A DNA stretch of 64,000 bases from Pseudobdellovibrionaceae bacterium (GTDB taxonomy: Bacteria; Bdellovibrionota; Bdellovibrionia; Bdellovibrionales; Bdellovibrionaceae): assembly GCA_947449255.1 (NCBI GenBank), contig CANFQX010000005.1, forward strand, positions 62,001 through 126,000, in the 5' to 3' direction. Positions 28,863-34,863 of this stretch are shown piece after piece (positions within the stretch are counted from its first letter, which is position 1; each line of letters opens with the position of its first letter). The position numbers and the translations under genes are program-made. The notes below the pieces were generated by a model. That model worked only from the letters and a program-made list of their open reading frames with translations, searched no databases and was not told the origin of the DNA.

Positions 28863-30266
28863 ATGCGCAGCCAACGAGTCCTAGTCTTAGACGATGAGTC
28901 TTCCCTTCGTACCGCTCTCTTTAGAGTCCTTGATCGAAAGGGCCTCAATGTTATCACGGCCAACAAAATTGAAGAGGCCAAATTATTATGCCAGGGTGAA
29001 GTCCCCATTGATCTAGCGATCGTGGATATGAATCTCCCTGACGGTGACGGCATTGAATTCATGACCTATTTGAAATCCCTGAATCCTGCGGCTGAGATCA
29101 TCATCTTAACTGGACATGGAACTATTGAATCAGCCATCCGAGCAACACAAAAAGGCGCCTTTCATTTCGTAACGAAGCCATTTAGCCTTGATGAGTTGAT
29201 GAGCTTGATTGAAAAAGCCCTGACTCATAAAAAGCTCCAACAAGAAAACAAACAGCTCAGATCAGAATTAAATAAAAAATATAAATTTGATCAAATCATT
29301 GGCACCAGCGATCAAATTCAGAGCGTCTTGAGGCTGATTGAGCGAGTTGCTGATTCTGACTCCACAGTGATGGTCACTGGCGAGTCAGGCACCGGGAAAG
29401 AACTTATTGCCAGAGCGATTCACTACAACTCCCCGCGAGTAAATGGACCTTTTATTCCCATCAACTGCGGAGCTATTCCTTCTGAACTTCTTGAAAGTGA
29501 ATTGTTTGGGCACATGAAAGGCTCCTTCACGGGAGCCATCGCAACTCGTGTTGGTCGTTTTGAAATGGCAGATGGTGGCACAATATTTTTGGATGAAATT
29601 GGCGACCTCGAGCCTGCCTTACAAGTGAAGTTGCTGCGTGCACTTCAAGAGCGCAGCTTTGAACCAGTCGGATCAGTAAAAACGGTGAATGTGAATGTTC
29701 GAGTTATTGCGGCCACGAATTTAAATCTTGAAGAAGCCGTAGAAAACGGTCAATTTCGTGAGGACCTCTATTATCGTCTGAATGTCATTCCTCTGGTCGT
29801 CCCTGCTCTGCGCGAAAGAAAAACAGATATTCCATTGTTGCTGAATCACTTCATCGATGTTTTTAATAAAACAAAAGGGCGTGGACTGACAGGTGTCAGC
29901 TCAGATGCTCTCGAATGCCTCGTCAACTATGCTTGGCCTGGAAATATTCGGGAACTTGAAAATCTCGTTGAACGAATGACAATCCTTAAGGGCCACGGGG
30001 CTATTGAGATGATTGATCTTCCCACTAAATATAAATCGGGAAAAATGGCGATCACAGATGTCAATAGCCTTGAGATCCCAGACAATGGAATGGACTTCAA
30101 CACTGCGGTTGATAACTTCGAAAACACTTTGATTTTAAAAGCTCTCGAAAAAACAGGATGGAACAGAAATCAGGCGGCGGCACTTTTGCGCCTAAACCGA
30201 ACCACCCTTGTTGAAAAAATAAAGAAAAAAGGACTGACTCAACCCGGAGAAGCCGTCCCCGGCTAG
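28863..30266 (+). CDS. NtrC-family sigma-54-dependent response regulator
   Basis: About 467 residues from ATG 28863, chosen because AAGGAAGG lies just upstream; an in-frame ATG at 28848 would lie upstream of this site. Receiver domain (1-120): RVLVLDDESSLRTAL, phospho-acceptor Asp in LAIVDMNLPDGDG, and VTKPF. The AAA+ domain has Walker A TGESGTGKE, the sigma-54-contact loop as GSFTGA (Ser for the usual Ala), Walker B GGTIFLDEIGDL, and WPGNIRELENLVERM. The C-terminal Fis helix-turn-helix is NQAAALLRLNRTTLVEKIKK. It activates unidentified sigma-54 promoters in response to the upstream kinase. Confidence 0.94.
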   Translation: MRSQRVLVLDDESSLRTALFRVLDRKGLNVITANKIEEAKLLCQGEVPIDLAIVDMNLPDGDGIEFMTYLKSLNPAAEIIILTGHGTIESAIRATQKGAFHFVTKPFSLDELMSLIEKALTHKKLQQENKQLRSELNKKYKFDQIIGTSDQIQSVLRLIERVADSDSTVMVTGESGTGKELIARAIHYNSPRVNGPFIPINCGAIPSELLESELFGHMKGSFTGAIATRVGRFEMADGGTIFLDEIGDLEPALQVKLLRALQERSFEPVGSVKTVNVNVRVIAATNLNLEEAVENGQFREDLYYRLNVIPLVVPALRERKTDIPLLLNHFIDVFNKTKGRGLTGVSSDALECLVNYAWPGNIRELENLVERMTILKGHGAIEMIDLPTKYKSGKMAITDVNSLEIPDNGMDFNTAVDNFENTLILKALEKTGWNRNQAAALLRLNRTTLVEKIKKKGLTQPGEAVPG

Positions 30267-30268
30267 TC

Positions 30269-31213
30269 TTAAAATAAATGAAGCATTTCAAAAAGGGCGT
30301 CCATCCCTGCCAGAGCCGTTATTTCTGAGGGATCATAGGCGGGCGATATTTCAACAACATCGCCGCCAACCAAATTGGGGATTCGCAAGGCTCTGAATAT
30401 GCGCTGAACTTCATAGGTCGTCAGCCCCCCAGGAACTGGTGTTCCTGTCCCAGGCGCATAAGCCGGATCCAAATTATCAATATCATAGCTGATGTAAGTT
30501 GGCGTCTGATCAAAAACAGGTAAAGTTTTAAGGAACTCGGGTAAACTTTGATTTCGAATGTCATCGACTGTGACCACTCGAATGCCATGCTTTTGAACAA
30601 AAGCAAGGTCTTCTTGTCCAGCTAAAGGCCCGCGAATTCCAATCTGTATCATTTTTTTTGGATCCACTAGGCCCTCCTCAACAGCATGTCTTGCGAAAGC
30701 CCCGTGATGGTACTCGCAGCCCCATGCTGCTGGATAGGTGTCTAGATGAGCATCAAAATGAATCAGGGCCAGCGGCTGGCCATATTTTTTTCTTAGAGCT
30801 CGCAGAACAGGCAATGTTGTTGAGTGATCCCCACCAACAGACAAGAATTTTTTATTGTGAACAAGCACTTCACTGACAAATTTTTCAATTCGCTCATAAG
30901 TTTGAATTTGATCAATGGGGACCGTTGGACAGTCACCAATGTCAGCCACTTTGAATTTTTCAAAAAAGTTTTCTTGCCGACTCATGTGAAAGCCCCTCCC
31001 CAAGGAAGAAATCTCTCTGACTTTTGCGGGAGCAAAGCGGGCCCCCGGGCGATAGGAAACTCCGCCGTCATAGGGTATTCCAAAAATTCCTATATCGTAG
31101 TCAGAGTCGATGGGAACATGGGGCAACCGAAAAAAAGTTTTAATTGCTGAAAACCGCGGGAATTCTCGTCCATTGAGAGGCTTATAATCCATTTTTTTTG
31201 ACTCCTGATTCAC
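30269..31213 (-). CDS. speB: Agmatinase/arginase-family ureohydrolase
   Basis: 314 residues. Binuclear manganese motifs of the ureohydrolase family are complete: GGDHSTTLP, IHFDAHLDTY and SYDIDNLDPAYAPGTGTPVP. FGIPYDGGVSYRPGARFAP and EISPAYDPSEITALAGM fit agmatinase (agmatine to putrescine plus urea) better than arginase or formiminoglutamase. Substrate cannot be settled from sequence alone. It converges on the sigma-54 regulator with only two bases between stops. Confidence 0.87.
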   Translation of the reverse strand: MNQESKKMDYKPLNGREFPRFSAIKTFFRLPHVPIDSDYDIGIFGIPYDGGVSYRPGARFAPAKVREISSLGRGFHMSRQENFFEKFKVADIGDCPTVPIDQIQTYERIEKFVSEVLVHNKKFLSVGGDHSTTLPVLRALRKKYGQPLALIHFDAHLDTYPAAWGCEYHHGAFARHAVEEGLVDPKKMIQIGIRGPLAGQEDLAFVQKHGIRVVTVDDIRNQSLPEFLKTLPVFDQTPTYISYDIDNLDPAYAPGTGTPVPGGLTTYEVQRIFRALRIPNLVGGDVVEISPAYDPSEITALAGMDALFEMLHLF

Positions 31214-31336
31214 TTACGAAGAGGCTAGCTTAGAAAAAAGAGAATTACGACTGATTTCCTTTATTGATGGCCGTCCACGCCACATCTGTTTTCAAGGCCT
31301 ATTTTAATTTAAAGAAATTAATTGCGAGCCGGTAAA

Positions 31337-32011
31337 TCATTTTTTACGGTAAATAGCAGAGCGTGTATTGCCATTTTTGATTGAATACAACTTCAGATCC
31401 ATTTCAGCCACTCGTCTGGATAACTTCCCGGGGAATAATTCTAGGTAATCATGGACAGTTATTTCTTTTTTTGAATTGAGAATTTTTTTTAATTTTCTAA
31501 TTCTTTCGCCTTTTGGAATAAGAGTGAGGTGTCGTTTCGGCTGGCTAGAGTCTTGATTGGGAAGCATTAGCTCACAAGAAAGATAGCCCCATTTTTTGTA
31601 GAGAGGCAAAGAATCAAATGCCTCATTTCTCTGTTTTTTTCCTGCAAAACTATAGAGACCTAAAAAATAATTTTCAGATGAGGACTTTTTAAAATCGGAT
31701 AAACAGCAGTTTCGCCAGTTTTTAAAACCCAGCTGCGTCCCCTTTGGTAATAAAAACAAAACATGATCACAAAGAATGCCCCAGCAGAGAGGCATTGGGG
31801 CGTCCTTTAGAACTTTATGCACTTCTAGAGGGTTCATTTTTGACCAACACCTTTGCAGATGTCTAATGAGGATTTCTCCTAATCTGGGATCAAATCGTGT
31901 CCACATAGAATATTGAACTAGGTCTGAAATTGAAACCACATTTCCAGACTGTAGAATATTATACGCGACAACTAAATCATTCTGCTGTGGAATTCTTAAA
32001 TCAACTTTCAT
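31337..32011 (-). CDS. Unknown protein with C-terminal winged-helix-like region, partner of an NTase
   Basis: 224 residues; I do not recognise a named family. The N-terminal half is compact and mixed (VYSMWTRFDP-like core, actually LVQYSMWTRFDPRLGEILIR). The middle carries aromatic and Lys-rich stretches. The C-terminus (about 180-215: EITVHDYLELFPGKLSRRVA, EMDLKLYSI) reads as a helix-turn-helix or winged helix. Its ATG overlaps the stop of the upstream nucleotidyltransferase gene as ATGA, so the two are translationally coupled. By analogy with AbiEi/AbiEii, a DNA-binding partner of an NTase may be an antitoxin and autorepressor. This is inference; no similarity to AbiEi is claimed. Confidence 0.6.
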   Translation of the reverse strand: MKVDLRIPQQNDLVVAYNILQSGNVVSISDLVQYSMWTRFDPRLGEILIRHLQRCWSKMNPLEVHKVLKDAPMPLCWGILCDHVLFLLPKGTQLGFKNWRNCCLSDFKKSSSENYFLGLYSFAGKKQRNEAFDSLPLYKKWGYLSCELMLPNQDSSQPKRHLTLIPKGERIRKLKKILNSKKEITVHDYLELFPGKLSRRVAEMDLKLYSIKNGNTRSAIYRKK

Positions 32012-32535
32012 TCCATTTGCTCCAATAGTTCATCTAAAAAATCAAGCGCAGCTTTGGCTTCGGGAATTTTTTTTGCCTTTAATTTTTCAATCTGTTGCTC
32101 TACTTTTTGAAGATTCACACCATTTTTTATCAATGCCTTAGCATGACTAATATCTTTGGCTCTGTGAGCAAAGCATTTCATAATAAGCATGTCTTCGGCA
32201 GAAAGTGCAGCGACTACCAAATAATCACCGGTAAAAACAGAAATCAAATTTTTTTCATAATCAGGCAAAATGACAAAGGCAAAGGAAGCGAAATAACAGT
32301 TCAACCAATCGGGGGGCAAATGAAGTTCCAAAGCGACTTCTTTGGTGAGTAGATCTAACTCGTGTATCTCAAGCCCTTTGGGTATGGCATCGACATCTGT
32401 TGTCGCCAGAGGAAAACCGTGCGCAAAAATCATCGCACCACCTCCTCCCATAACAAGTTTTAATGGCTTAGTGAGTTTTCGATCGAGAGCGCTAAAAGCC
32501 TGTTTCATGATCTGCAGAGAAATTGGTTTTTCCAT
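32008..32535 (-). CDS. Nucleotidyltransferase-fold protein (DUF6036/AbiEii-like)
   Basis: 175 residues from ATG 32535. I reject the in-frame ATG at 32562 because it lies upstream of the transcription start predicted from the TTGCGA/TATAAT promoter, and AAGGA sits 9-10 bases before 32535. The nucleotidyltransferase core is KLVMGGGGAMIFAHGFPLAT then TDVDA (G-G...D-x-D at about residues 30-49). LSAEDMLIMKCFAHRAKDIS matches the family's LxxxDLIxxKxxAxRxKD helix. A C-terminal Lys/Glu helix follows. Such proteins include AbiEii-type toxins, MenT-like tRNA-modifying toxins and MntA-like antitoxins. Which one applies is unknown. Confidence 0.72.
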   Translation of the reverse strand: MEKPISLQIMKQAFSALDRKLTKPLKLVMGGGGAMIFAHGFPLATTDVDAIPKGLEIHELDLLTKEVALELHLPPDWLNCYFASFAFVILPDYEKNLISVFTGDYLVVAALSAEDMLIMKCFAHRAKDISHAKALIKNGVNLQKVEQQIEKLKAKKIPEAKAALDFLDELLEQME

Positions 32536-32564
32536 AAACAACATCCTTATTTCTGAATACAACC

Positions 32565-32593
32565 ATTATAGCGAATTGCCGAACTTTTCGCAA
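32565..32593 (-). promoter_or_regulatory. Near-consensus sigma-70 promoter of the NTase module
   Basis: On the minus strand, TTGCGA (32593-32588), a 17-base spacer and TATAAT (32570-32565) form a strong housekeeping-type promoter. The -35 and spacer also form a near-palindrome ATTGCGAA-AAG-TTCGGCAAT, with one inserted G in the right arm. That suggests an operator occluding the -35, as expected for an autorepressed module. Confidence 0.7.
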
Positions 32594-32747
32594 TAAAATC
32601 ATTTTACATCGATTTTACAGATACTTACAAAGGTTTATAAAAAATATTAACTTTCGAACAAGCCCCCATCATTGCGTTGCTTCCATGATATTTAAAATAT
32701 TAAGAATTTGACCTCGACCCATTATCGCGATGTAAGGGAGCCACAGA

Positions 32748-33794
32748 ATGGCTTGGAGTCTTCAAATGAAAACCCTAAAAAACAAAGACCTCGAAAAAAA
32801 TATTCCTAAAAAAACACTGGCAGAAAACAGCCTCAACGAGGATCATAAATTGCTCGTTCAGTGGTATGAAAAAAACAAGCGCAGTCTGCCGTGGCGAATT
32901 AGTAAAGATCCTTATAAAATATGGCTCTCAGAAGTCATGCTCCAACAAACCACAGTCACCGCCGTCATTCCTTACTATGATAAATTTTTAAACCTGTTTC
33001 CTACCGTTCAGCATTTGGCAGATGCTGCGGAAAATGAAGTGATGGCCGCCTGGGCTGGACTAGGATATTATTCGCGCGCTCGAAATCTTCACAAAGCAGC
33101 AAAACATTTGGCTGAAAATGGCTTTCCAAAAACAGCCGCAGGCCTTATAGAATTTCCGGGCTTTGGCCCCTACACCTCTCGGGCCGTTGCAAGCATTGCC
33201 TTTGGTGAAAGGGTTGGAGTCCTTGATGGGAATGTCATCAGGGTCCTTTCACGAAGACATGGGCTTCATCTTGAATGGTGGAACAATAAACCTCGCCAAG
33301 AGCTTCAGACACTCTCAGATCACTTAGCCTTATTAGGTGCTCCAGAGAAAACAAATCAAGGACTCATGGAACTCGGCGCCACTGTTTGCACGCCAAAAAA
33401 AGTCATGTGCATTCTGTGCCCCTGGTCTTCCAAATGCGTCGCCAGAAAAAATGACGCCGTTGAACTTTTGCCGCTCAAAAAAGCCCGAAAAAAAACTGAG
33501 ATCTGGGTTTGGAAACCCATCGTCGCGATCAAGGATAAAAAGGTGGCCTTGGTCAAAAACGACTATGCGCCGTTTCTTAAAAATCAACTTATTTTCCCTG
33601 GCCAAATTTCAATGGAAAAAAACAAGCCTAAAGACTGTAAGCTCAGGCATAGCATAACCCACCATGACATATTTATTCAGGTCGAATTGAAAAAAAACCT
33701 CGCCGGAACAAATCTCCATTGGGTAAACTTAAGTGAGCTGAAAAAAGTAAATCCCTCCTCTCTTTTACAAAAAGTGCTGGGACAGGTTTTATAA
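32748..33794 (+). CDS. mutY: A/G-specific adenine DNA glycosylase MutY
   Basis: Removes adenine mispaired with 8-oxoguanine. 348 residues. Catalytic Glu62 lies in SEVMLQQTTV, the helix-hairpin-helix is LIEFPGFGPYTSRAVASIAF, and catalytic Asp160 is in GVLDGNVIRVLSRRHG. The [4Fe-4S] ligands C214, C221, C224 and C230 have the C-x6-C-x2-C-x5-C spacing. The C-terminal NUDIX-like 8-oxoG recognition domain (about 240-348) is shortened and diverged. AAGGGAG precedes the ATG by about 7 bases. Confidence 0.96.
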   Translation: MAWSLQMKTLKNKDLEKNIPKKTLAENSLNEDHKLLVQWYEKNKRSLPWRISKDPYKIWLSEVMLQQTTVTAVIPYYDKFLNLFPTVQHLADAAENEVMAAWAGLGYYSRARNLHKAAKHLAENGFPKTAAGLIEFPGFGPYTSRAVASIAFGERVGVLDGNVIRVLSRRHGLHLEWWNNKPRQELQTLSDHLALLGAPEKTNQGLMELGATVCTPKKVMCILCPWSSKCVARKNDAVELLPLKKARKKTEIWVWKPIVAIKDKKVALVKNDYAPFLKNQLIFPGQISMEKNKPKDCKLRHSITHHDIFIQVELKKNLAGTNLHWVNLSELKKVNPSSLLQKVLGQVL

Positions 33795-33822
33795 AAGTTG
33801 AACGAGATGAAAAAGGTCAGAA

Positions 33823-34863
33823 ATGAAATTCTTAAAAAAATGTCCACAGTTTATTCTTAGCTTAATTTTGAGTTTCATTTGTGGATGTTCTCATTTCAAT
33901 TCAAACAAAAAATCAAATGAAAAGACTCTTGTTGCAGGCTTGATCGATGAGAACAAGGGCGACTCTGTTCACCCCCGCTTTTCACCGGATGGGACAAAGC
34001 TGATCTATGCAAGCAAGATGAGATCTGAACACGCGAAATCCCAAATCTATGAATTAGATCTGATCCACAACAAGGAACGCAGGGTCACTTTTTCTGATGG
34101 CGATGCCTTTGACCCAAGTTATATCAATGACAGTGAAATTATTTATTCTTCAACAACCGACGATATAAAAGAAAATTATTTTTCTAAGGCCATTGTCGGC
34201 GAAGCGAAGGTCATTGAATTTCCTGGATCTGATATCTATAGAAGTGACAGGTATGGCAGCGAAATCATCCGCCTGACAGAACAGCCTGGATTTAATGGTG
34301 AAGCCACTTTGATCACTAGCGGTCCAAAGACATTTGTCATCTACACCTCTTTTTTTGACAATTCGATGTCGGTTCGAAAAATTGACATCGAACAAGAATC
34401 CTCTTTATCCATAGGTTCGGCCTCAGAAAAATATCGCAGGTTTCCTACACTCAATAAAGATCGTTCAAAAATTGCATTTTTGGAAAAAGATAAATCCACT
34501 CAAGAGCAAAGCCTGGTCATTTACAACCTAAAATCTAAAAAGATTGAATCCACAGTAAAACTTGAAGGCCAATATCGTGATTTGTTTTTTGCACCTCGAC
34601 CTCCCGAAAGAATTTTCTATAGTGTCCTTCGAAAAGGTGACCCCAATTATCATATCGAAATGTATGACCTCGAAGACAAGTGCACACAAATAGTTTTAAA
34701 GGATTCCATTTCTCTATTGAGTCCGGCGGTGTCTGATGACAGCTTTGAAAAATTAGCATTTGTTCGATTTAAGCCCTTAGAAAATGAAATCAAAGTTTTG
34801 AATCTACCAAACCTGAAGGACTCCTGCCGAGCACCGGAGCCCGTTTCTATGAATTCAAGATAG
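33823..34863 (+). CDS. Lipoprotein with TolB-like beta-propeller (PD40) repeats
   Basis: 346 residues. The signal peptide ends in lipobox FICGC (about 19-23). The mature part carries propeller repeats of the TolB/PD40 type, clearest as VHPRFSPDGTKLIYASK (about 50-66), then QIYELDLIHNKERRVTFSDG, DPSYINDSEIIYSS and SDIYRSDRYGSEIIRLTEQP. It is probably a lipid-anchored envelope protein binding other envelope components. It follows mutY by 28 bases. Confidence 0.8.
   Translation: MKFLKKCPQFILSLILSFICGCSHFNSNKKSNEKTLVAGLIDENKGDSVHPRFSPDGTKLIYASKMRSEHAKSQIYELDLIHNKERRVTFSDGDAFDPSYINDSEIIYSSTTDDIKENYFSKAIVGEAKVIEFPGSDIYRSDRYGSEIIRLTEQPGFNGEATLITSGPKTFVIYTSFFDNSMSVRKIDIEQESSLSIGSASEKYRRFPTLNKDRSKIAFLEKDKSTQEQSLVIYNLKSKKIESTVKLEGQYRDLFFAPRPPERIFYSVLRKGDPNYHIEMYDLEDKCTQIVLKDSISLLSPAVSDDSFEKLAFVRFKPLENEIKVLNLPNLKDSCRAPEPVSMNSR

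Follow-up and report, generated by a model that had tools for sequence, protein, structure and literature searches.

The closest described counterparts of the locus reported here are two-gene modules that contain a nucleotidyltransferase (NTase). In the AbiE systems, the gene for the regulator is known to precede that for the NTase (PMC3985639), and the winged helix of the antitoxin is positioned at the N-terminus (PMC10435456). For MenT1, an NTase toxin of Mycobacterium tuberculosis, toxicity requires D41, K137, and D152, and residue T39 is phosphorylated (PMC10435456, PMC11375011).

The window, that is, the entire stretch of 64,000 nucleotides that was analyzed, is from a predatory bacterium and contains a cassette of two overlapping genes. 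Their positions are as follows.

32008 to 32535, minus strand: NTase gene (DUF6036, 175 amino acid residues), probable toxin, assigned from PF19502, a MenT1-like fold, and a start common to relatives
31337 to 32011, minus strand: partner gene (224 residues), probable antitoxin and autorepressor, assigned from its position downstream of the NTase, its structure, and helix-operator covariation
32008 to 32011, minus strand: ATGA stop/start overlap of the NTase and partner genes (translational coupling), a gap of -4 being the commonest among relatives

An earlier note on this DNA had described two open reading frames, the ATGA overlap, and a 224-residue partner, and all are present in the sequence. 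With a probability of about 0.7, we read the cassette as a mobile two-gene toxin-antitoxin module, with the NTase as toxin and the two-domain partner as both antitoxin and autorepressor.

The NTase was assigned to begin at the ATG at 32535 because the sequence AAGGA lies upstream, relatives begin with the same methionine, and the start given by the ORF finder, the TTG at 32562, is too near the -10 box. The latter start, just 2-3 nt past that box, was rejected. The ribosome-binding site and the sequence motifs of the enzyme are located as listed below.

32544 to 32548, minus strand: ribosome-binding site AAGGA of the NTase
32437 to 32448, minus strand: motif I, GGGG, residues 30-33, of which G30 and G32 are conserved in all 46 sequences
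32389 to 32403, minus strand: motif II, T45-x-D47-x-D49, invariant in 46 sequences
32143 to 32178, minus strand: motifs III/IV, K120..A123-x-R125-x-K127-D128-x-x-H131, invariant in 46 sequences

Apart from the glycines, the residues conserved throughout the 46 sequences are T45, D47, D49, K120, A123, R125, K127, D128, and H131. The protein matches Pfam family PF19502 (DUF6036) with E=2.8e-9 and a score of 37.4-37.7 bits, the gathering cut-off being 23.6, and all 44 of the family members searched against Pfam match it as well. Two of these 44 touch PF08843 weakly; the window NTase matches DUF6036 only, and the Pfam search for DUF1814/AbiEii, which marks membership in AbiE, gave no match. The AlphaFold2 model (pLDDT 95.3) displays an NTase fold, the best match of which in the PDB is MenT1 with a Z score of 9.9, followed in order by a fungal NTase-like protein, the AbiEi entry 6y8q, ANT(2'')-Ia, MenT3, and MenT4. 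When the PDB was searched with sequence profiles built from the NTase and partner alignments, only chance matches resulted. The NTase fold and motifs that had been proposed from the sequence are thus borne out by GGGG, T45-x-D47-x-D49, RxKDxxH, PF19502, and the predicted structure, for which MenT1 is closest.

Of the MenAT1, MenAT3, and MenAT4 systems, then, it is the first that supplies the solved fold nearest to the window NTase. On the basis of motifs, T39-x-D41 of MenT1 corresponds to T45-x-D47 of the window protein, and the putative catalytic lysine and aspartate are conserved too. The spacing between these differs, being 15 residues in MenT1 (K137-D152) and 8 in the window NTase (K120-D128), and MenA1, a 68-residue protein, is unlike the window partner. 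With AbiEi/AbiEii, a type IV system with a DUF1814 NTase, the cassette shares two overlapping genes and an NTase of the pol-beta type. Indeed, the distance from the motif I glycines to DxD is 15 residues both in AbiEii and in the window enzyme. Whereas the regulator gene comes first in AbiE (PMC3985639), here the NTase gene is first and the partner lies downstream; whereas the wHTH of AbiEi is N-terminal, the winged helix of the window partner is C-terminal; and the NTase belongs to DUF6036, with a motif IV of KDxxH instead of +DxxD. HEPN-MNT systems are like the window cassette in being two-gene NTase modules, but the window partner is a predicted DNA-binding autorepressor, and the alignment between the window NTase and the solved MNT antitoxin is weak.

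The architecture of the partner is distinctly two-domain.

31577 to 32011, minus strand: N-terminal all-helical domain, residues 1-145, from alignments and the model
31340 to 31525, minus strand: C-terminal winged helix, residues 163-224, with VIA-align Z about 8 to winged helices
31394 to 31420, minus strand: recognition helix SRRVAEMDL, residues 198-206, with specificity positions R200 and M204, from covariation with operator bases

The model (pLDDT 92.7) is all-helical to about residue 145 and forms a winged helix from residue 163, in keeping with the winged-helix C-terminus read from the sequence beforehand. For the C-terminal part of the partner profile, a match to a Fic protein was obtained as well (E 5e-7), in the winged helix at the C-terminus of that protein. 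In the alignments, the N-terminal domain, presumed to be the NTase-binding part, contains a near-invariant R-x-D-P-R-L motif (R39, D41-P42-R43). The partner has zero matches in Pfam, NCBIfam, and PADLOC, so that no family in these libraries, housekeeping ones included, accounts for it, and the AbiEi models leave it unmatched; neither window protein is matched by PADLOC or NCBIfam. None of the HEPN Pfam families was matched by 44 partners. The observations in the earlier note that the NTase comes first and that the partner does not resemble AbiEi both hold.

The promoter and the putative operator overlap one another in the following manner.

32588 to 32593, minus strand: -35 box TTGCGA, which is also the left operator half-site
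32565 to 32570, minus strand: -10 box TATAAT
32569 to 32593, minus strand: putative operator TTGCGAA-N11-TTCGCTA over the promoter, a conserved repeat in relatives

As had been claimed, the promoter TTGCGA-17-TATAAT is near consensus (a 10/12 match, tied best in the region). The leader between the transcription start and the ATG of the NTase is about 20 nt in the window. A search of Rfam revealed no RNA element at 30000-34000. The near-palindrome that had been seen in the -35 box and spacer spans the -10 box too and, taken by itself, is not significant, since 15% of shuffles equal it. It is considered real because relatives conserve it. Of 47 upstream regions, 28 have both promoter boxes (-35 and -10) covered by an inverted repeat of the form TTGCGA..N..TCGYAA, 25 or 26 bp in length, and the strict operator pattern occurs at 22 of the 47 loci versus a shuffle mean of 0.005. 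Within the 3.2-Mb source genome, the operator pattern has two matches, one of which is the cassette promoter. The operator/promoter begins exactly 35 nt before the ATG of the NTase in L017, L020, L038, L048, L050, L053, L056, L058, L060, L061, L064, and L075; given this spacing, transcription in these 12 loci is expected to start at the ATG or immediately beside it, resulting in a leaderless mRNA.

The sequence of the half-site follows that of the recognition helix. Base 7 is C in 15 loci, all of which have R at the position of M204 of the window partner, and A in another 15, none of which does; the resulting p value of 1.3e-8 (Fisher) is only descriptive, because the operator-class patterns were written after the upstream sequences had been inspected, as is the p value of 5e-7 (6 versus 30 loci) for a second operator class in which TTGAC pairs with Q at the position of window R200. 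On the NTase tree, base 7 and the residue each switch four times and every compared pair agrees. Just 2 of the independent base/residue pairs (4 in all) lie on well-supported branches, and the Fisher p values therefore overstate independence. The rule is kept in four new loci outside the alignment (L231, L232, L233, and L235), and a fifth, L234, obeys it in one half-site. Because operator base 7 co-varies perfectly with the recognition-helix residue (30/30), the role of the partner as a putative repressor of its own operon via the inverted repeat is strongly supported, and nearly certain, at the level of sequence. The conserved operator and the helix covariation thus point to a partner that, like AbiEi, would repress its own operon at inverted repeats. 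These partner-operator pairs represent a natural data set on DNA recognition by winged helices.

In a group of three loci, L021-L023, the operator is absent and an XRE-type C-terminus is detectable in two; as judged from sequence, the DNA-binding domain in this group is swapped for a predicted XRE-type HTH. L022 has a different palindrome, TAGGCATTTAAGCCTA, that overlaps the -10 box (shuffle p about 0.05), and its partner is without the common winged helix. For two other DUF6036 pairs examined in the source genome, the palindromes are not significant.

The surroundings of the cassette are informative as well.

31214 to 32747, no strand assigned: region from an agmatinase-family gene to mutY, containing the cassette, which is absent from 22 congeners

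In those 22 congeners, mutY directly adjoins the agmatinase-family gene with no gene in between, and the cassette is present in 1 of 23; it is therefore a discrete two-gene insertion. Its G+C content is 38% versus 42% for the window, and the third-position value is 0.33-0.35 as compared to 0.42 +/- 0.03 for 15 long genes. A relative resides on a plasmid, pBdHM1, from Bdellovibrio sp. HM001. The identification of this copy with locus L022 was rejected since the sequences differ. The cassette is mobile, and its distribution is sporadic. No relative was found among 50,697 phage records or the IMG/VR viral contigs.

The NTase profile identifies 46 loci in GTDB genomes of the Bdellovibrionota and of the Myxococcota and other deltaproteobacteria, including two with a broken NTase (L063 and L079). 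According to the partner profile, the partner lies directly downstream in 46/46, mostly with a 4-base overlap. An intact NTase of the window class occurs in 32 of 291 genomes of the phylum, each time with the partner (32/32), and co-occurrence, which had been suggested as a check, is accordingly complete in both sets. In a larger search, 42 of 369 genomes contained at least a fragment of the NTase, and no intact NTase without a partner was encountered in the genomes searched. In G160, an NTase cut by a deletion, with the RxKD motif gone, is fused to an intact partner; in G132, the first 80 residues of the NTase are missing and the partner is intact; and in G292, the partner is present and the NTase absent. 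Both genes have decayed to remnants in G214 and G179, and G352 retains an NTase fragment without a partner. The asymmetry of decay, with the partner kept and the NTase lost in three genomes, fits the NTase as the toxin.

Several other explanations for the cassette must be weighed against the toxin-antitoxin module. The roles might be reversed as in HEPN-MNT systems, with the partner as the toxin and the NTase as an antitoxin that modifies it. For HepT-MntA, AMPylation of the toxin by the NTase-fold protein is reported (PMC7641770). We regard such a reversal as very improbable, given that the partner is intact without an intact NTase in the three genomes noted above, that it holds the DNA-binding domain and operator specificity, and that the NTase model matches MenT1 with a Z score of 9.9 and the MNT antitoxin 8xeo with one of only 3.6. 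A switch devoid of a toxin, in which the NTase acts on its own repressor, by nucleotidylation or some other modification, for dedicated regulation, would accord with a partner that is a predicted autorepressor and with an operator found almost nowhere else in the source genome. A repressor with its own modifier as the sole target has no evident benefit, however, and the sporadic distribution and the outlasting of the NTase by the partner fit an addiction module better, all of which makes the switch quite unlikely.

Compatible with the toxin-antitoxin reading is a dedicated anti-phage defense unit similar to AbiE, which we consider rather unlikely. Phage resistance can arise from AbiE NTase systems (PMC3985639), and a few of the loci adjoin AbiE, SoFic, or PADLOC candidate genes, but the neighbors are mostly ordinary housekeeping genes. 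ATPases of the AAA_14/DUF4143 type or PADLOC PDC-S01 candidates adjoin about four loci (L036-L080 neighbors), and a similar-looking ATPase gene at L144:1837-2958 adjoins an orphan partner.

For the toxin-antitoxin module, the following mechanism can be envisioned. The NTase would act as the toxin and probably stop growth via nucleotide transfer to RNA, and by analogy to the MenT enzymes its most likely target would be tRNA ends. The N-terminal helical domain of the partner would bind and silence the enzyme, and the C-terminal winged helix would bind the inverted repeat that covers the -35 and -10 boxes, thereby repressing the operon. A drop in the level of the partner would then release both promoter and enzyme. 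More speculatively, T45, at the position of T39 in MenT1, might allow partner-induced autophosphorylation as an additional silencing route; with this invariant threonine, antitoxin-induced autophosphorylation becomes testable beyond MenT. Of the AbiE-type layout claimed in the earlier note, the NTase, the predicted DNA-binding partner, and its apparent operator stand, whereas neither a DUF1814 NTase nor an upstream AbiEi was found; by analogy, the module plausibly works like AbiE while falling outside that family. The further suggestion of an undescribed system holds in that no mention of DUF6036 or PF19502 was found in the literature searched and the partner matches none of the family libraries searched. 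It is tempered in that our best reading is a variant on the NTase toxin-antitoxin theme, with the toxin gene first and the DNA-binding domain of the partner C-terminal. Toxin-antitoxin-like NTase modules would thus exist with both gene order and domain order reversed.

The source genome contains additional DUF6036-type genes at C3:82046, C13:3418, and C13:42092, and the first two each precede a different partner of 210-215 residues with an apparent C-terminal HTH. In a set of 51 divergent DUF6036 loci, a partner of that type lies downstream in 31, one of the HTH type is present in about 14, mostly on the upstream side, and a winged-helix partner is located upstream in two. The modules designated types II-IV resemble that of the window in placing a DUF6036 NTase beside a partner, and in each of these three types an HTH domain is detected or at least apparent. 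Their partner sequences are unrelated or marginally alike to that of the window (hhalign probability under 25%), and in types III and IV the partner gene is upstream, unlike in the window. In the hhalign comparison of partner profiles I-IV, those of I, II, and IV are colinear, yet with a probability under 25%, so homology is not claimed; as far as the profiles indicate, these three types may share a helical domain. A functional hypothesis is in this manner provided for DUF6036, an unassigned family of NTases that, throughout the Bdellovibrionota, have as neighbors partners that bind DNA or contain an HTH. We propose tentatively, and at somewhat less than even odds, that the DUF6036 NTases constitute a separate toxin-antitoxin superfamily. 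Its antitoxins would join a single helical domain to DNA-binding domains that can replace one another (winged helix, XRE-type HTH, or other HTH) and that may sit at either end, in modules of either gene order, and each of these domains would match the promoter-operator of its own module by a readable residue-base code. An upstream HTH-type partner of about 160-215 residues, in the order opposite to that of the window, is observed in L024, L025, L027, L198, L202, L203, L205, L207, L210, L213, L217, and L218.
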